Shown: positions 46,001 through 55,443 of the stretch, one piece after another
How positions within the stretch are numbered: the first letter of the stretch is position 1
Layout: the number at the start of each line of letters is the position of its first letter
NCBI RefSeq assembly: GCF_000275845.1
Contig: NW_006766893.1
Span: 774,632 to 838,631, forward strand
Length of the DNA: 64,000 bases
Source of the DNA: Dichomitus squalens LYAD-421 SS1
Lineage: Eukaryota; Basidiomycota; Agaricomycetes; Polyporales; Polyporaceae
Reading direction: 5' to 3'
The notes under the pieces: generated by a model
The model's input: the letters and a program-made list of their open reading frames with translations, nothing else
Told to the model about the DNA's origin: nothing
The model's database searches: none
Made by a program: the position numbers and the translations under genes

Positions 46001-46251
46001 ACCAGACCAGATCTACATAGCTATAGGCGTCTTCCAAAATCAATGATGGCAAGATTTGCGCATGAACAATTGAGCAGTGGACCGTGCGCAATCTTTGATG
46101 GCATAGCCCATATGGTCGACCTGCATGTGACCGACTGTGAACATCGTATCGTCATTGGTAACGGACATTCTAGACTCGAAACCAGTCGATCGGAACGCAC
46201 GTGGGCCTGCCTATCGTGGAAGAGCGGAGAGTGAAAGGCAGGGCGTTCCTT
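43088..46251. other. Gene-poor stretch before the DUF6589/helicase element
   Basis: About 3.2 kb. Apart from one 99-codon frame (44144-44443) and two overlapping frames at 45437-46046 that match no family I know, nothing stands out. No RNA genes were seen. Confidence 0.35.
44144..44443 (+). CDS. Hypothetical open frame, 99 codons
   Basis: A hydrophilic frame with a central YAELRAEAENRRRNEAQR helix-like stretch and a C-terminal APPAYSM, a possible PY-type WW-domain ligand. No intron, signal peptide or family is recognised. The acid/base pattern looks more protein-like than its surroundings, but chance is not excluded. Confidence 0.2.
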   Translation: MAMKVVVRFISKMPRNSGRGLDTSSRESPRLTDPVNLPSKYAELRAEAENRRRNEAQRDPMEPPQTERESDSGTTLPQYDTEDVMSESTPSTAPPAYSM

Positions 46252-46322
46252 AACGACTGGTCCAACTCGACGCCCTTTTGGCAGGCGACCGCATTTGGTA
46301 CCCCGTGTGAAAACGTACTTAG
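46252..46322 (-). repeat. Left inverted repeat of the DUF6589/helicase element
   Basis: Read on the minus strand it starts CTAAGTACGTTTTCACACGG and ends near GTTGGACCAGTCGTT. It matches the right repeat at 65 of 71 positions without gaps. Confidence 0.75.
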
Positions 46323-46418
46323 TGGAATCGCGAACAGCGCTCTTGGAGAATACCGACGTGCCGCTGTGTAGCGTTCTGTCCCCTCAAATGTCGCCCCGTT
46401 TGTGATCATATTGTGTTA

Positions 46419-49400
46419 CTACCAGTCGTCTATGTCTAAAGACAGGTTATGTTCCTCTGCAAATGCCGCGCGCGGCTCATAGATGTCCCCCTCAAGTTGT
46501 CGCCACATCTCTGCCTCGTCGTCGTCGACGATCCGGGCCTCAGTGCTCGGATTGGATGGGTCCTCTACAGCCTCGAATGTATTCTAGTGAGGAATCAGTC
46601 TGATATCAAGTAAACGGTGGAATTATCACTCACGGAGGTCCGGCTATCCGAGGACACGACGTCCCCCACTGTTCCGACCGCGTCCTGTGGGGCGCTCACA
46701 GGTTTCGCAGCGAGGGCCAGTGGCGTGATGCGGCGCTGACGCTGCAGCTGCTCGAACGTGCGATTGTAATCGTTGAGGGGACCTGGCAGCTGCTTGAGTC
46801 CAGCGCTCACTATGTTGAGCACCTCACCTTTGGACGGGTTGTCTGAATAGATGAGGCGGCCCGCTTCTGGCACAAGCACGTTGTATTCACGAAGCCTGTT
46901 GCATATTGTCTCGTAGTCCTTCGTAAGGTCCGGTGACCGATGTTTGCTACCCAGGTGCGCGCCGAGGGAGTCATTGATTTGCGTCGCGAGCTTCCGAAGC
47001 ACGCCGACGCATGGAGAAATCATCTCCAACCATTCCCATGACGCGTTGCTTCCCTGCGCTTTGTACATTACCTAAACGATGTTAGTGCGGCGATATGTTG
47101 ACAATTATAGGCATCGAACCTTAATCCAAAAGTTAAGATGTTCCTGCAGTAAGTCCACGGGCACAAACGCGTCGTCCTTGCCTGTTGGATTGACTAGCCA
47201 GTTATTGATCATGATATTTCTAGAGAAGCCATGTTTTATTCCGAAATTATGGCGACCAATACGAGCACACGTACCGAAGAGGGGCGGGCCACAGGTGTGT
47301 CAGGTTATGTATAATGTGCAGCATCTCGTAAGCGTACTTAGTTCGCCCACTGCCACGATACATGAGCGCCAGAATCTTGAGGGTGCGGATGATTCGCCCG
47401 GAGTACCCCCCTTTGATAGCATCGTTGAACTCCCGGAGAACGAGGGCGTCGCGCATGAATAGACACATGTTCTCAAAGACCATGTCGCCAGCTGTGATAT
47501 TTGCCTCAGTGTGTATTTGTTCGCTGGAGGCAGGCACGCCAGCCTGAGGCTGCACGACTGGGTCAGTATGCGGCGCACGATGAGAGACATTGCATTATGG
47601 GCGTACATCAGACAGCGCGAGCTCTGCACCTTGTTGCGACGAAACATCTTGACTTTCTGGCTGAGACTCAGCATGCCCTGAGTGAGCAAGTCCGCTGACG
47701 GCGACCTGGGACGAGTGGAGAGGGGTAGGTGGAGTGTCAAAGTGCTCGCCTTCCTGACCGCATTCGAGCTCTTCGTGCCTGGCTTGTCGCAGCGTTGAAG
47801 CAACTGTGGGACGCACGTAAGTGTCGTATATCTCAGTAACATGGTTTTGCAGTTCTTCAAACTCGACGTTTGCTGCATAGTCTTCGAGGGATTCGCAGCG
47901 AGAAACTAGTTCCAGGCAGTGGAGAAGGGAGCCAGTTAGCGTGGTGAAGATCAGATCGCGGCATACACGATAAGGGGGGAGTGACGACATCACAATGGGC
48001 TTGCGATCGAGGGAGGTGTTTATGGCATGAAGGGAGGCGGGGCTTTGAGAGCCTGCTTGAGGGTCGCCCCAGTGGGTCTCCATGATACCGTGCACGAGTG
48101 TCATCTGATGATGGAAGAAACCGGGGCCGAATACGAGAGATGAGAAGGATCGATGGAGAGCATCGTGTCCGGCGCGATTGGCATTAATAGACCTAAGGCG
48201 CGAGATGGAAAGCTGATCACCAAAGGTGAGTTTGGCGAGTTCCCCAAACTCGAGTGCATTCACGTCGAAACCTAGATCCGTAAATATAGTGTCGATAACC
48301 TCCGCGTTGCCGGTGATGCTGGACTCGTCGATGTGCATTGCCGGCAGCGGATACACATCGGTCTTGTGCACTGGAATCTTGTTATCTGTGGCCGGCAGAC
48401 ATGAGTGGACAGCATCTCGGAAACGTTCGAATAGAGGGGACTGAGAGACAATGACGCGCAGGATGGTGTGCTCGAGTGATTGCCGGAAGAGCGTGGTTTC
48501 AGCAGGTGTATGGATAATGTCTTGTACTGAGAGGGGGGGCGCGGCATTGAAGCGTTCCAGAAGATGGGATGCCTTCATGTCCGAGAGGGAGGCCTGCTGC
48601 AAAGCGAATATGGTGGCGCAGGTACCGTTTTCCTGCGAGTCTTTGCGCCCGAGGATTTGCTCGGCTACCTTGAACATGAAATTTATATTATCATACACAA
48701 GTCCAAAAGGAGCTGTGTGCGCGCGAGTCGCAGCTGAGGCACGACATGATGTGGAGAGTTTGCGGAGGAGTCCTGCGCCTCGGTGAAAGGCGCGCTGGAG
48801 GCTGAGCGCGATAGACGCTAGCGCGGCCTGGGCGCCTGACGCGGGTGTGACCGTGTCTTGATCGCGCGCGACCATCGCGTCGTCTGCACCGATCGCGACT
48901 GGTCAATGCTAATAGCTAGTGAAAGGATGGAACTCAATTTCTCACTGGGCAACACTGTCTCCTCTTGCTCTCTGATCCCTTGGACAGTCTCCGGATGGGC
49001 TTCTCGTGGGGGCGCCTGCTCTTGAGCTTCTTGGGCGTCACAGACTGACTGGCGTGGGTGCGCGAGCGTCCTCATCTCTGTGTTTCCCTCCTCGCTCGTG
49101 CTCTCGTCTTGCGGCGCCCTGACCGGTCCCGACACACCTCCTTCCCATGCCACAGTGGACTTCGAAGCCGCGCGCATGGAGGAATATGCAACGTCCTCTG
49201 GCTCTGTCTCGTAATCTGACGACAGACTCTCTAAGTCCCCATCTGGCTCCCAGTCTGGATCTTCCCCGTCCGAGGAGTCGTCGCAGAGCTCTCGACCGGC
49301 CTCAGGAGCACTCCCTCTGTGGTGAGTGTCTACCATCTCCTTTGTGGACCCGCTGCCTACAAGGGCTGAGTAGCTAGTCGCCACATTCAGACTGGAGAGC

Positions 49401-50527
49401 AAGGAGAGGGTCTGTCGCGATGCCCCGGTCGCGTACAAGTATAGCCCCATAATATAGCAGACATACGAGTTGTTCTGGCTCCTTTGCCCCAGGAGATCTA
49501 CCAGGGCTGTGCCAACTCTCTGGAAAACCGGTGAGTTGCCTTTGTTTGGGTGATGTGGACGAGGAGTACATACCAGGTCTCTGCGGTCTCGGCGGCGCTG
49601 CACTATCGCTTCCTCCTGGGGAGTTTTGTGGTTCTTAACTTCGAGTCGGGCGTGGCGGGAGGTGGTGCAGAATTTGCGCATGAGGGTGGTCATCGCTGGA
49701 CAGACATCAAACAAGCGCGAGTGGATGGCGCGCAGGTTAAAGTCGAGTACGAAGGACTCGGAGATGGACATTCGCGGGGTGAGGAGAACACCATCCTTGG
49801 TCGTGCGACTCGCCTCTTGCCCCAGCAGGTCTCCAAGGTACGTCAGAGCCCATTGGCGAATGGTAGTCTTTGCGGATTCCGAGTTTTTCGTTGTCCATAG
49901 ATCGAGAACCTCGCGTACTTGTACCCTGTTGATGAAAAACCCATTCCATAGATCATTACGGCACTGTGAGGACGGCTGTGCAATCCACTGAATAAAGTCT
50001 CCCCAGGTCACCCCGTGCTTCGCAAAGTCCTCCAGTACCCATCGGAAGTAGGTGTCCTTCCGGGACATATCTCGGCGGGCAGGCTCCTGGTGAAGGATCC
50101 TGCTCTCGCGGGCTGAGGCCTGTAGGATCCTGGTTTGCACGGCGTCATGGGTAGCCTGTCTGGCAGCGAGAGTCTGCCGGCGTTTTTTCTGACCCTTGGC
50201 TATACGGCCTTCTTTTGCAGTACGACCTCCATGGCGCAGCGATGAGGTCGACATGATGCCGTCCATGGGATCGCTCTCTGTCTCGGACTGAGGGGATTCT
50301 GTGTCACTGAGTCGGACCCCATCGTGAGCGTTCCGGCTCAGCGTTCCACGGGTAGGTCTCTCGGGTGTCGCAGGCAAGGGCTGATGGGTCTCGGGTGTAG
50401 GTGTCGCAGGTTCCTCGCGCTGAGCGGCCTGGGGTGAAGGAGATCGCGAAGGGATCGTCGTCAAGTCTGAGAGCCCAAGTATGTAGTCCAGGTCGTAATC
50501 CGAACGTCGGCTGACAGACTCGTCCAT
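46419..50527 (-). CDS. DUF6589-domain protein, about 1260 aa, 7 exons, intact
   Basis: Exons: 50527-49574, 49519-48946, 48883-47607, 47549-47275, 47219-47120, 47071-46634, 46583-46419. All phases agree (3783 nt), and every intron is 48-62 nt with GT-AG ends. The protein matches the DUF6589 family of Agaricomycetes as I know it: MSRKDTYFRWVLEDFAKHGV near 170, LTFGDQLSISRLRSI near 730, FHHQMTLVHGIMETHWG after it, DMVFENMCLFMRDAL, NIMINNWLVNPTGKDD, DLLQEHLNFWIK and AQGSNASWEWLEMISPC. Residues 1-140 and a stretch around 440-510 are disordered and acidic. The family has no proven function. The conserved GDQ, H/MxxxH and acidic positions could form a nuclease-type active site, which is inference. 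The frame is undamaged over 4 kb, implying recent selection or recent arrival. Confidence 0.85.
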
Positions 50528-50716
50528 TTTAACAGCAGTAGAGTGCAGAAGGGAATAAGAGCTATGGTGCAGGCCCGATTGTACTGGGTGGTGTACAACC
50601 CCGACTGTCCGGGAATTGGCCGCGCTGTCTCATGAGCACCTCCAATCGCGCCTCCTCTCTACCTTGCCCCTGTACTTATTCTACTCCTATACTGTATTCA
50701 TTGTCTACTCTCTCTA
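50528..50716. promoter_or_regulatory. Bidirectional promoter of the DUF6589 and helicase genes
   Basis: Only 189 bp separate the two start codons, so expression is probably coupled. The helicase side carries a pyrimidine-rich run ending TCTACTCTCTCTA just before the ATG and a TATACTGTATTC stretch about 30 bp upstream of it. Confidence 0.55.
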
Positions 50717-53700
50717 ATGGCACCCCCAACGCGCACCGCACGATGGAAAACAAAAGTTACCACACCACGCCCTTATATACCTCGCCCCCGCCTCACACAG
50801 GACCAGCTGGACAATCTCGCCGCCAAAATGCGCATGACGTACGGGTGGGATTCAGACCCGAAGCCCTTCCAGCTCGAGGCGGTCAAGGCCCAGCTCGAAG
50901 GGGTCGACATGATCGTTCAAGCACCGACAGGTGCAGGCAAGACGGCAATCGCTGCAGGACCCCATCTGTGGCGAGGAAGTGAGCAGACTTTCACGATAAT
51001 GGTTTGCCCCCTTCTCTCCCTGGAAGAAGAGATGGTGCGCGTTTTCACGTCGTCTTTTCGGACCGAATGCTAATTTGTCTCGCTCCGACTAGGAGAAAAC
51101 TTTTGCAACTGACTTTCATTTGAAAGCCATCGCCCTCAACTCGGGCAACGGCGGATGTTCCCCCCGTAAGATCAAGGTGAGCCAAGGGCGAGCCTCACAA
51201 GTATACATGACATGATCATGCGTGGAGCTGTGCACGACACCTTGTTATGCCTCGCACTGGACGGAGCTCACACGACTTCACTCAGGAAATACTGGCACAC
51301 AAGTACCAGGTAATACTCATCTCTCCAGAGATGCTGCAATCGCGGACGTTTACAGACCGCGTCCTACGCAATGCGGGCTTCATGCGGCATATAATGTCCT
51401 TGTTCATCGACGAAGCGCATTGCATAGCTCACTGGGGCGCGGATTTTCGTAAGAAATACGGGAGCCTCGGTAAGATACGCGTGTTCTTCCCCCGCGGCAC
51501 TCCTGTCATCGCTGTGACCGCAACCCTCACCGCGCGCGTGCGGCGCACCATCCACCACACACTGCTTTTCGCACAATCGCCATCCCAGAGCCGCTTCGTG
51601 AATGTCGGCAACAACCGGCCGAATATCTCCATCGTCGTCCGAGCCTGCGAGCACCCTCTCAATTCCTATGTTGACCTCGCGTTCGTCATCCCACCCAATA
51701 TACAAGACCTTCGTGACATACCCAAGACTTATCTGTATGTGGACGACATCGCTAGCGGAACCGAGATCATCAACTATCTAGGCGACAGACTCGAAGCGAC
51801 TGCTCATCCCTCCATTCAAACATCGACCAGGCTCACATCTCTTCGGGAGGTCATCCGCCCTTCCAACGCGACCCTATCACAAGAATACCGCACGGAGGCC
51901 ATGGCTCGCTTTCGCTCGGGAGATGTCCGAGTGCTAGTATGTACCGACGCAGCTGGGATGGTACGTTAACCCCCTTTTCCCACATTGTTCACAACAGACC
52001 GCGTTCGGCTTCCTACATGCACTCGAGCAGCATCTGCGCGATGCAAGCTGCAAGGTCGTCTGTGTTTCCAGCACCATCGCCGCTTCTAACATGATCACTC
52101 TACATAGGGCTGCAATATGCCTGATATAGACCGTGTGGTGCAATGGAAGCTGCCCGCGACGTTCTCCCACTTCATTCAACGAGCAGGACGTGCCGCACGA
52201 GGACCCGGTCGCATGGGCGTGGCTATTCTCCTCGTGGAGAGATCGGCTTACAACACTGACCTTGTCAACCAGACTTCTATGCCGCCACCATCGCTGCCGA
52301 ACACCAATGTTGATGTCAGACGAACCAAATACATGATCCCAAACAAAGCCGCGGCGACAGGGAAGAGGGACACCAAGAAGATCCGCGAGTATGCCATAGC
52401 GCATGGAGTCAACCGAGGTGGGTCCCTCAAGCAGGATGACTTACCTACCGGTGAACAACCTCGCATCGACCTGGACCGCGCCGATGAGAGCCTGTTGACT
52501 CTTGTACAAAGCACCCGCGTTTGTCGCCGACGCATCTGGGCGGAAGTTTTCGAGAGCCCTATTTGCGAGACTGGTGAGTGCTCCCTAACGCGCTTCGCCA
52601 TAATAGCCATTCAAGCTTGTCTGAAAGCACCATATGTGCGTTGCTGTGACATCTGCTGTCCTGACCTTCTGGATATCGCACGACCACCCCCCTCAACTCG
52701 TCAAGCTCAGGTGCGCCAGGCGAAGAAGGGGTTACACAACCCTTGTGCGCGCGATCACTTCAGAGCCTGGCGCAAACGCATATATGCTCGGGATCACACG
52801 GACGCGATGTACGACGAGACAATTATATTCGATGATGATCTCATTGCCGCCCTTGACTGCGTTGGTCCCCTCTCCCCCGAGTACATCACATCTGTCTTGC
52901 AAGGCAAATGGGCGTTCTGGCCCAAGTATGGGGAGGAACTTATAGCATTCACGCGCACTTTCACGAGTGACTTCATCCAACCACCAACCAAGCCGCGCAA
53001 CCCCTCAAAAGCCCCTCAGATTCCACGCTCACGTTCAGCAACTCCCGCACCCACGCCGCCGCCGTTGCCAGCAAGGCGTACAACGCCCGGAATGCCTGAC
53101 CACCCAGTCACGCCAGATTCTGCTGCCCCAACCCATCCTGTGCTCTCGTGGGCCTCCAAACGCCCCTTGAGCGACAGTTTTCTCCAGCCCGCCCTGATCG
53201 ACCAGGACGCCTTCGCAGGCACGTCAATGCCACCCACGAAGCGCACGAAGCCCAGCGCCTACTTACCTGAGCGCGTCTCCACACCCATGTTCCCTCCAGA
53301 GCGCCCGCTCTCTCTCATGCCGTCATCCACCCATCGCCACCCTCTCCCTACTACGAATATCATTGTACCTGCAACTCCCACACTGCCCTACCCACTGTAC
53401 ACACCGCCGACTGCCATTGTCCCCTCCCCCTCTCATGCGCAACCAGGCGCACCCTACTGGGCCCGAAACCACCTCCCTGCTCTCGCCTCCCCAGTCCAAT
53501 ATCTCCCTCCTAAGCCCGCATTCACCACGCCCAGTCCATCGCCTTTGAATTATCCTCCTCTCTCCTACCATGCCGACGTCATCCGATCCGCGCCCATGTC
53601 GCCATCGCCGTCTATCATCCTCTCACCATCTCCATCGCCTCACCCATACCCCACCCGGTCCGCACGAGTAGCGACGTCTGATGTCGCTTCCTACAATCCA

Positions 53701-54006
53701 AATTCAAACTCTTCGGTACGTTACCCTCATGTTGCCTTAACTGACCAGTTCCCTTCAGTATCAGCTCTGCCCACACCAATGCCATCGCGGCCTCCTAGCA
53801 CCACATCCTCCCATCCCATTCACCAGTACGTGGCCCCAAAGCTTGAGCCTGCCCAGATGCTTCATCCAGGAGGACCTACATCTTATATTCCATCGCCCGC
53901 GACGTATACGACATCTGTTGCGACAACCTCAGCACGGCGACCTTCCACCCCGCACACCCCAGCTCCCGCTTTTCTCGAGTTCACCTGGGATTCAACACTC
54001 TCATAG
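50717..54006 (+). CDS. RecQ-like superfamily 2 DNA helicase, about 991 aa, 4 exons (a fifth in-frame intron possible)
   Basis: 3'-5' DNA helicase of the RecQ type. Exons: 50717-51034, 51093-51176, 51286-51960, 52108-54006. Motifs: motif 0 (KPFQLEAVKAQLEG), Walker A (APTGAGKTA, about 69-77), Ia (MVCPLLSLEEEM), DEAH at 176-179 (FIDEAHCIAHWG), III (VIAVTATLTA), V (VLVCTDAAGMGCNMPDI), VI (FIQRAGRAARGPGRMG, about 380). A RCCDICCPDLLD cluster suggests a zinc-binding site. The last 340 residues are Pro/Ser-rich and disordered. Bases 52574-52627 look like a 54-nt intron (GTGAGT to AAAG) that keeps the frame; removing it puts the Cys cluster closer to the core and gives 973 aa. No HRDC or RNase domain is visible. 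All helicase motifs are intact. Confidence 0.85.
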
Positions 54007-54132
54007 CTCATATTCTGACTTTGATACACATCATGTAGTATTGAACAAACATTGTTTGCAAGTAGGGAATTTTGAGCAGGCGCAGTGAGACATTTCGCTC
54101 GTGTACGCTCAACACGTACATCTCCAATTTCT

Positions 54133-54203
54133 CTAAGTACGTTTTCACACGGGGTACCCAATCCGGTCGCCTGCCAAAACGGCGCCCAGTTGGACCAGCC
54201 GTT
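54133..54203 (+). repeat. Right inverted repeat of the DUF6589/helicase element
   Basis: Starts CTAAGTACGTTTTCACACGG and ends near GTTGGACCAGCCGTT, facing outwards. It is the mirror of 46252-46322 with six substitutions in 71 positions. Confidence 0.75.
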
Positions 54204-54447
54204 CGGTGATCCTCACGTGCGGAGTGTGAATCTGGATCACCGAATCTCGGCAGGGGACGAGCCTACGGACATTCCCCTCTTGGCGAACTCACGTCGTTTC
54301 AAGGTCTGGCGCGGAGACAGTATGATAGCGGCTGACCATACGCAACCAGCAGCGCGCTCGTCTCACAAATGTTCCGATCTCCCTTCGGACAGAATGTCTA
54401 TAAACACAGGCTTGGAGCGACTTGTCCGAGAACCTTGGCCTCCCACC

Positions 54448-55443
54448 ATGCGCTCCATCTTGCTCGTGGCTGCCCTCCCGGCGTTTGTGGGCGCCAAAAC
54501 CTTGTCGGTCGACTTTTCGACCTTTGCGTCGTCAGGCTTGACGGTCGCCCAGTTTCTCGACCAGAGCTCCCTATACGTCTCAGCTTATGAGGTCCAGACG
54601 TCCTACCTCAGTGATCCCACCGCGGACCCATTCTCGCATACATTCGTCACTGATAACGTAGACATCCAGGATGGATACCTGACGCTTAGAGTCTCCGGAC
54701 CCACCGGGCAGGGCGCGTCTGTCCTGAGCGCGGAGGTGGGCACCTACGACGCGAACATCCTCTATGGGTGAGTCTTTCGCCTCTCCCATAGATGCCCAAA
54801 ACGCTCTTCATCGACTTCGACTTCCGCCGCTTGCAGGACATTCAAGACCGTCGCCATCGCATCCCCTGTACCCGGCGTCGTCCATGGGTAAGAGATTATC
54901 GGCCTCTCATATTGAACCGGAACCTGGATCGTGATTCCATCAGCTTTTTCACGTACAAGAACGACTGCCAAGAGTCCGACATCGAGCTCCTGACGTCGTT
55001 TTACACCACGGGCAACACCTTCGTGCACCCTGGCCTCCAGCTCACTAACCAGAACCTCCAATGCGATCACACCCAAAACACCCACACGCAAGTTGCGTAT
55101 CCAGCTGATCCCACTGCTGATGAGCATGAGGTTCGTGTTATTGATCCTTCATTCCCTTCTCTCCTCATCTCCGTTCTGCCCCTGTCCGCGTGCTTCACAA
55201 CTTCGGCCTCCGCCGAACATCGTCCGACACATGCAGTATACCCTGACCTGGAACTCGAGTGCCACCACATACCTATTCGACGGCACAGTCGTTGCGACAT
55301 TGAACAGCAACGTGCCTACTGAGCCCTCATCCTTCCTCTGGAACTCGTGGTCTGGTGGCAACGAGCGCTGGTCTGCAGGCCCGCCTACTCAGGATGCTAT
55401 CCTGAAGATCAAGAGCATCTCGCTCGATTACGAGACGGCTTGA
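54448..55443 (+). CDS. Secreted GH16-like (beta-glucanase/concanavalin-fold) protein, about 254 aa, 4 exons
   Basis: Exons: 54448-54767, 54837-54887, 54944-55130, 55237-55443 (765 nt, phases agree). Signal peptide MRSILLVAALPAFVGAKTL. The catalytic motif of GH16 (E-x-D-x-E) is seen as ESDIE at 134-138, after GFFTYKNDCQ. Later come DEHEYTLTWNSSATTYLFDG, VPTEPSSFLWNSWSGG and the usual GPPTQDAILKIKSI end. It probably hydrolyses or remodels beta-glucan outside the cell. At 254 aa it is shorter than most GH16 members. Intron 3 (106 nt) has a GTTCGT donor. The start lies 245 bp from the right repeat of the mobile element, so its promoter may overlap the element edge. An upstream in-frame ATG (54394) would only lengthen a hydrophilic leader. 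Confidence 0.78.

Follow-up and report, generated by a model that had tools for sequence, protein, structure and literature searches.

We show that a two-gene mobile element lies within a 64,000-nucleotide stretch of the Dichomitus squalens LYAD-421 SS1 genome (contig NW_006766893.1, positions 774,632 to 838,631 of the forward strand; hereafter the window). The element pairs a gene of the DUF6589 family with a divergent gene for a RecQ-like helicase, has an exact target-site duplication (TSD) of 9 bp at its borders, and has further copies elsewhere in the same genome. We consider it very likely that this is a DNA transposon of the AcademH type, that is, an Academ element carrying a helicase of the RecQ type, in which DUF6589 would supply the DDE transposase. 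The initial annotation of the window had proposed an undescribed transposon made of these two genes; the element is real and informative, but it probably does not represent a new class and fits the AcademH kind already described.

The initial annotation had reported 71-bp inverted repeats as the flanks of the element, and an exact recount gave the same result (46252-46322 and 54133-54203, 65/71 identical), with ungapped extension lengthening the arms to 77 bp (69/77). Between the 2-kb flank regions, the best 77-bp inverted match scores 69 in the real sequence and no more than 41 in 20 mononucleotide shuffles. The inner repeat served as a query for searching the host genome, and the ends of the copies found on C16, C25 and C65 were then aligned with the window copy (C11). 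In C16 and C25, similarity extends outward to the tips, TAGACTCG on the left and TAGGCTCG on the right (other strand); the C65 copy is too worn to align outside the inner repeat. Because this end similarity runs to the tips and two copies of CGGACATTC sit just outside them, we place the element at 46171-54265, where it reads TAGACTCG...CGAGCCTA between perfect 9-bp duplications. The inverted repeat thus holds up, but only as an inner feature, with the tips 81 bp (left) and 62 bp (right) further out, and 46252 and 54203 were rejected as element ends since the likeness to other copies continues to the TAG tips. The boundary features are as follows.

46171..54265, no strand: whole transposon, 8,095 bp, placed by its TSD and by alignment of its ends with the copies on C16, C25 and C9
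46162..46170, plus strand: left TSD CGGACATTC, adjoining the left tip
54266..54274, plus strand: right TSD CGGACATTC, adjoining the right tip
46171..46204, plus strand: left (L-type) tip TAGACTCGAAACCAGTCG...
54232..54265, minus strand: right (R-type) tip TAGGCTCGTCCCCTGCCGAGATTCGG..., read on the minus strand
46252..46328, plus strand: left arm of the inner 77-bp inverted repeat, including the reported 71-bp arm
54127..54203, minus strand: right arm of the inner 77-bp inverted repeat

In the window copy, the base preceding the duplication is also common to both sides, so that 10 bp can be read; the 9-bp reading is favored by the other copies and by the TA tips, which match. A 9-mer shared somewhere in the flanks of the window copy arises in 133 of 2,000 shuffles and, since chance can produce such matches, the weight of the TSD lies in its position exactly at the tips in copy after copy. 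Ten two-ended copies were found, with varied TSD sequences that match at 9/9 positions in seven and at 7/9 in three short copies. Since the copy searches scored the best candidates only, copy numbers are lower bounds; the loci compared include no close match to at least one DUF6589 protein annotated in D. squalens whose contig also carries a helicase (P0010, P0134). Besides the window copy, the two-ended copies are these.

C16: window type, 7,787 bp, duplication CGTAGAGCC, both genes
C25: window type, 1,145 bp, duplication TTTATCATG, no match to either protein
C9: window type, duplication GCCTTTGAC, ends separated by 23 kb that include a long run of N, parts of both genes
C17: window type, short, 467 bp, duplication 7/9
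C75 (L032:1472-1550): window type, short, 79 bp, duplication 7/9, almost entirely the two tips
C106 (L042:1470-1541): window type, short, 72 bp, duplication 7/9, almost entirely the two tips
C7: distant type, 4,744 bp, 63-bp repeats, tips TAGTCTCG, duplication CTATTTCCT, helicase remnant (49 residues aligned, 41%)
C66 (L070:1079-7366): distant type, 6,288 bp, 184-bp repeats 98.9% alike, duplication AACCACCGC, tips CAGGCTCC, helicase
C6 (L072:1118-7697): distant type, 6,580 bp, repeats of about 250 bp (79%), duplication GAAAGTGCC, tips CAGGCTCC, helicase

The initial annotation had named in advance two patterns that would speak against a mobile element, namely DUF6589 genes lacking both the repeats and a helicase neighbor, and repeats occurring unpaired and unrelated to these genes. 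Nine DUF6589 loci were found in D. squalens. Six of them have both inverted-repeat ends, all with a 9/9 TSD, and eight adjoin a helicase or a helicase remnant. Only the C29 locus (L073, C29:338500-346347) has neither, showing no inverted repeats or helicase within 7.8 kb reaching the contig end; it may be either a decayed copy or a host-domesticated gene. At two further loci, one end is readable or recognizable and runs of N lie opposite: C1 carries a helicase and a left end of C7 type, with no right end found and N starting on the right side, and C65 has both genes, an unrecognizable outer left end and rightward sequence that enters N. C65 was rejected as a complete copy because its outer ends are not resolved, as was a nested insertion in C9, whose interior is the run of N. 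As for the second pattern, the repeats found away from genes belong to short two-ended copies (C25, C17, C75 and C106), as is expected of non-autonomous relatives; single or partial ends occur on C45 and at 1018 kb on C6. Copies, 9-bp TSDs and gene linkage together bear out the proposal of a two-gene mobile element.

The two genes between the repeats are open, divergent and readable with standard introns in our splice models, as had been claimed. They correspond to annotated D. squalens proteins, P0001 (DUF6589) and P0121 (helicase), which are the proteins of the window locus by contig match and species.

46419..50527, minus strand: DUF6589 gene, proposed DDE transposase; manual splice model, PF20231 at E 6e-143, predicted structure of P0001; seven exons (50527-49574, 49519-48946, 48898-47607, 47549-47275, 47219-47120, 47071-46634, 46583-46419), 1,265 amino acids modeled
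48690..48692, minus strand: codon of the proposed catalytic D579 (YDNIN), kept in 77/78 alignment rows, with one gap
48216..48218, minus strand: codon of the proposed catalytic D737 (GDQLS), kept in 78/78 alignment rows
47141..47143, minus strand: codon of the proposed catalytic E1058 (DLLQEH), kept in 77/78 rows, with one gap, and in 71 of the 73 C66-type proteins that have any residue at this position
50528..50716, no strand: 189-bp spacer separating the start codons of the two divergent gene models, presumably holding both promoters
50717..54006, plus strand: RecQ-like helicase gene; four exons (50717-51034, 51093-51176, 51286-51960, 52108-54006), 991 amino acids

DUF6589 is very probably the transposase of the element, because its predicted structure aligns with DDE recombinases. 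In the structural re-alignment of the confident model of P0001, the first 22 rows are all DDE recombinases (Hermes, P element, Tn5 and RAG1), which supports a DDE fold for the modeled protein and makes the initial assignment of DUF6589 as transposase likely. Identity in the re-aligned rows is 6-11% to hAT, P element, Tn5 and RAG1-Transib proteins; a plain Foldseek search with the model returned nothing significant, and a profile search of the PDB gave no match at E <= 1. These families are not known to have a RecQ partner. A Pfam scan to E 0.01 finds DUF6589 as the sole domain of the protein. We propose D579, D737 and E1058 as the catalytic triad. E653 had also been a candidate for the catalytic glutamate, being present in 78/78 rows of the window lineage, and was dropped since H, Q, R or Y mostly takes its place in the C66-type lineage, where E696 stays.

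The helicase is of RecQ type, judging from its sequence. Pfam assigns DEAD and Helicase_C domains, the best PDB match is RecQ, and the recQ_fam profile matches at E 5e-43, under the profile cut-off; Pfam RecQ_Zn_bind matches only weakly. Among the 120 helicase relatives listed, a CRRxxW...CxDxC-like zinc motif is found in 101, DEAH in 117, GxGKT/S in 112 and the motif VI pattern in 95. The C-terminal part of our model is less certain because it reads through a probable small intron starting near 52574, which is apparently spliced out in annotated P0121.

The association of the two genes extends to other fungi, in keeping with the suggestion that the helicase acts as a partner of DUF6589. One search returned 323 DUF6589 relatives and another 179 of a distant type. 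We compared 120 listed of the 323 with 120 listed of 2,697 helicases, pairing contigs by equal size, a procedure that shows no gene distances and in which the species was checked by eye for some pairs. By this measure, 58 of the 120 DUF6589 relatives (44 in the first 60) lie on a contig matched to that of a listed helicase, as do 14 of the 40 listed proteins on contigs below 100 kb. Several pairs have neighboring locus tags, for example EVJ58_g10195/g10196, NM688_g6203/g6204, NM688_g6046/g6047 and GSI_01526/01525. These counts, together with the D. squalens loci, support the helicase as a regular partner of DUF6589.

The proposal that the transposon is undescribed did not survive comparison with the literature, in which the sources cited here by accession were available as excerpts. 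'RecQ Helicase in Academ' is listed among accessory proteins (PMC3627910), and TSDs are given as 9 or 10 bp for AcademH and 3 or 4 bp for AcademX, a difference tied to the helicase and nuclease (PMC10045372); because the RecQ of Academ and the TSDs of AcademH are in print, the claim of a new class is not upheld. AcademH is also described as low-copy in Basidiomycota, Ascomycota and Mucoromycota (PMC10799480). The window element resembles it in carrying both helicase and transposase genes inside 46171-54265, in its 9-bp TSD, in the RecQ type of its helicase, in a DDD/E transposase (here by predicted structure and by two conserved Asp and one conserved Glu), and in its low copy number in a basidiomycete. 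AcademH (Kojima 2020) was compared through descriptions in citing papers, which revealed no difference in the traits just named. On these grounds we infer the Academ identity of the element. It is unlikely that DUF6589 elements form a DDE superfamily of their own, apart from Academ, with an independently acquired RecQ helicase and 9-bp stagger. Such a reading could draw on the databases, since NCBIfam has no DUF6589 entry, Pfam labels it a family of unknown function and neither gives it an Academ name, and on the open-licence literature searched, where we found neither the term 'DUF6589' nor 'Academ transposase', nor any link of Pfam DUF6589 to a DDE transposase; however, the helicase type, the TSD length and the fungal low-copy occurrence agree with AcademH as excerpted. 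We hold it similarly improbable that the window family, with its handed ends (described below), belongs to a separate fungal DDE superfamily whose RecQ is a direct participant in the reaction, unwinding the ends, for instance, or powering a copy step.

Other known groups fit far less well. KolobokH, described as a Kolobok with a RecQ helicase and reported only from fungi (PMC9587614), shares its helicase partner and its fungal hosts with the window element, yet the Kolobok TSD is the 4-bp TTAA according to the same excerpt, and the 9-bp duplications here are varied, so that the assignment counts as refuted on this trait. Moreover, no column pair between D423 and E696 has C/D and H in more than half of the 78 alignment rows, as the C/DxxH signature, which in Kolobok stands between the second D and the last E, would require, and the window helicase is a separate divergent gene rather than lying downstream of the transposase domain; a KolobokH element is very improbable. 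MuDR elements often have long inverted repeats, which would suit a MULE (MuDR) element with a captured helicase gene. The 9-bp TSD also falls within the 4-10 bp given for MuDR (PMC10045372, in excerpt). Nevertheless, a MULE is hardly to be expected: the Pfam scan up to E 0.01 gives no MULE transposase domain beside DUF6589, the C/DxxH motif again lacks a majority, and the helicase recurs beside DUF6589 in many species, unlike a single capture. That there is no transposon, and that two host genes lie between inverted repeats made by chance or recombination, could be argued from the C29 gene, which stands without repeats or helicase. We regard this as extremely improbable, given repeats far above shuffles and copies elsewhere with 9-bp duplications exactly at their tips.

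The ends of the AcademH-like window family are handed. One L-type and one R-type end are present in each of the seven two-tipped copies of window type (C11, C16, C25, C9, C17, C75 and C106). Over 34 nt, mean identity is 0.82 among the seven L-type tips and 0.83 among eight R-type tips (one being the single end on C6), compared with 0.47 between L and R, even within one copy, with ranges that do not overlap; the two types differ past their common 8-bp tips. In the C7 and C66 elements, the two tips are symmetric. This arrangement suggests that the two ends may have different roles in window-type elements.

Transposition most likely proceeds by cut-and-paste, in which a DDE transposase acts with a stagger of 9 bp. 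DUF6589 would bind and pair the element ends (tips plus inner repeats) and release the 3' ends at the TAG tips. These would then be joined to two target positions spaced by 9 bp, with gap repair yielding the 9-bp duplication. As an accessory, the RecQ helicase may unwind the element ends or the strand-transfer product, or it may assist repair. Handed ends combined with a constant helicase turn the need of a cut-and-paste element for a helicase into a testable question. Reading DUF6589 as a DDE transposase also offers a likely function for fungal genes now held in databases under a domain of unknown function, and would let annotators find low-copy families overlooked by repeat counting. In this respect, RecQ-like genes beside DUF6589 are probably transposon genes rather than host repair genes.

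Gene order is divergent in C11, C16 and C65 and convergent, with the helicase on the left, in C1, C6 and C66. The distant DUF6589 lineage represented by C66 and C6 combines convergent genes with CAGGCTCC tips and replacement of E653, and the near identity of the C66 repeats (98.9%) suggests that this element may have inserted recently. The C11, C29, C25 and C1 copies are located some 4-40 kb from the end of a contig, and several others are mid-contig. Subtelomeric RecQ genes were considered as an explanation from these contig positions and set aside. Next to the window element, a predicted secreted protein (54448-55440) has its start codon 182 bp past the element end, and the insertion may sit in its promoter. 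A downstream open reading frame matches glycoside hydrolase 16 weakly (E 0.0018, below the cut-off).
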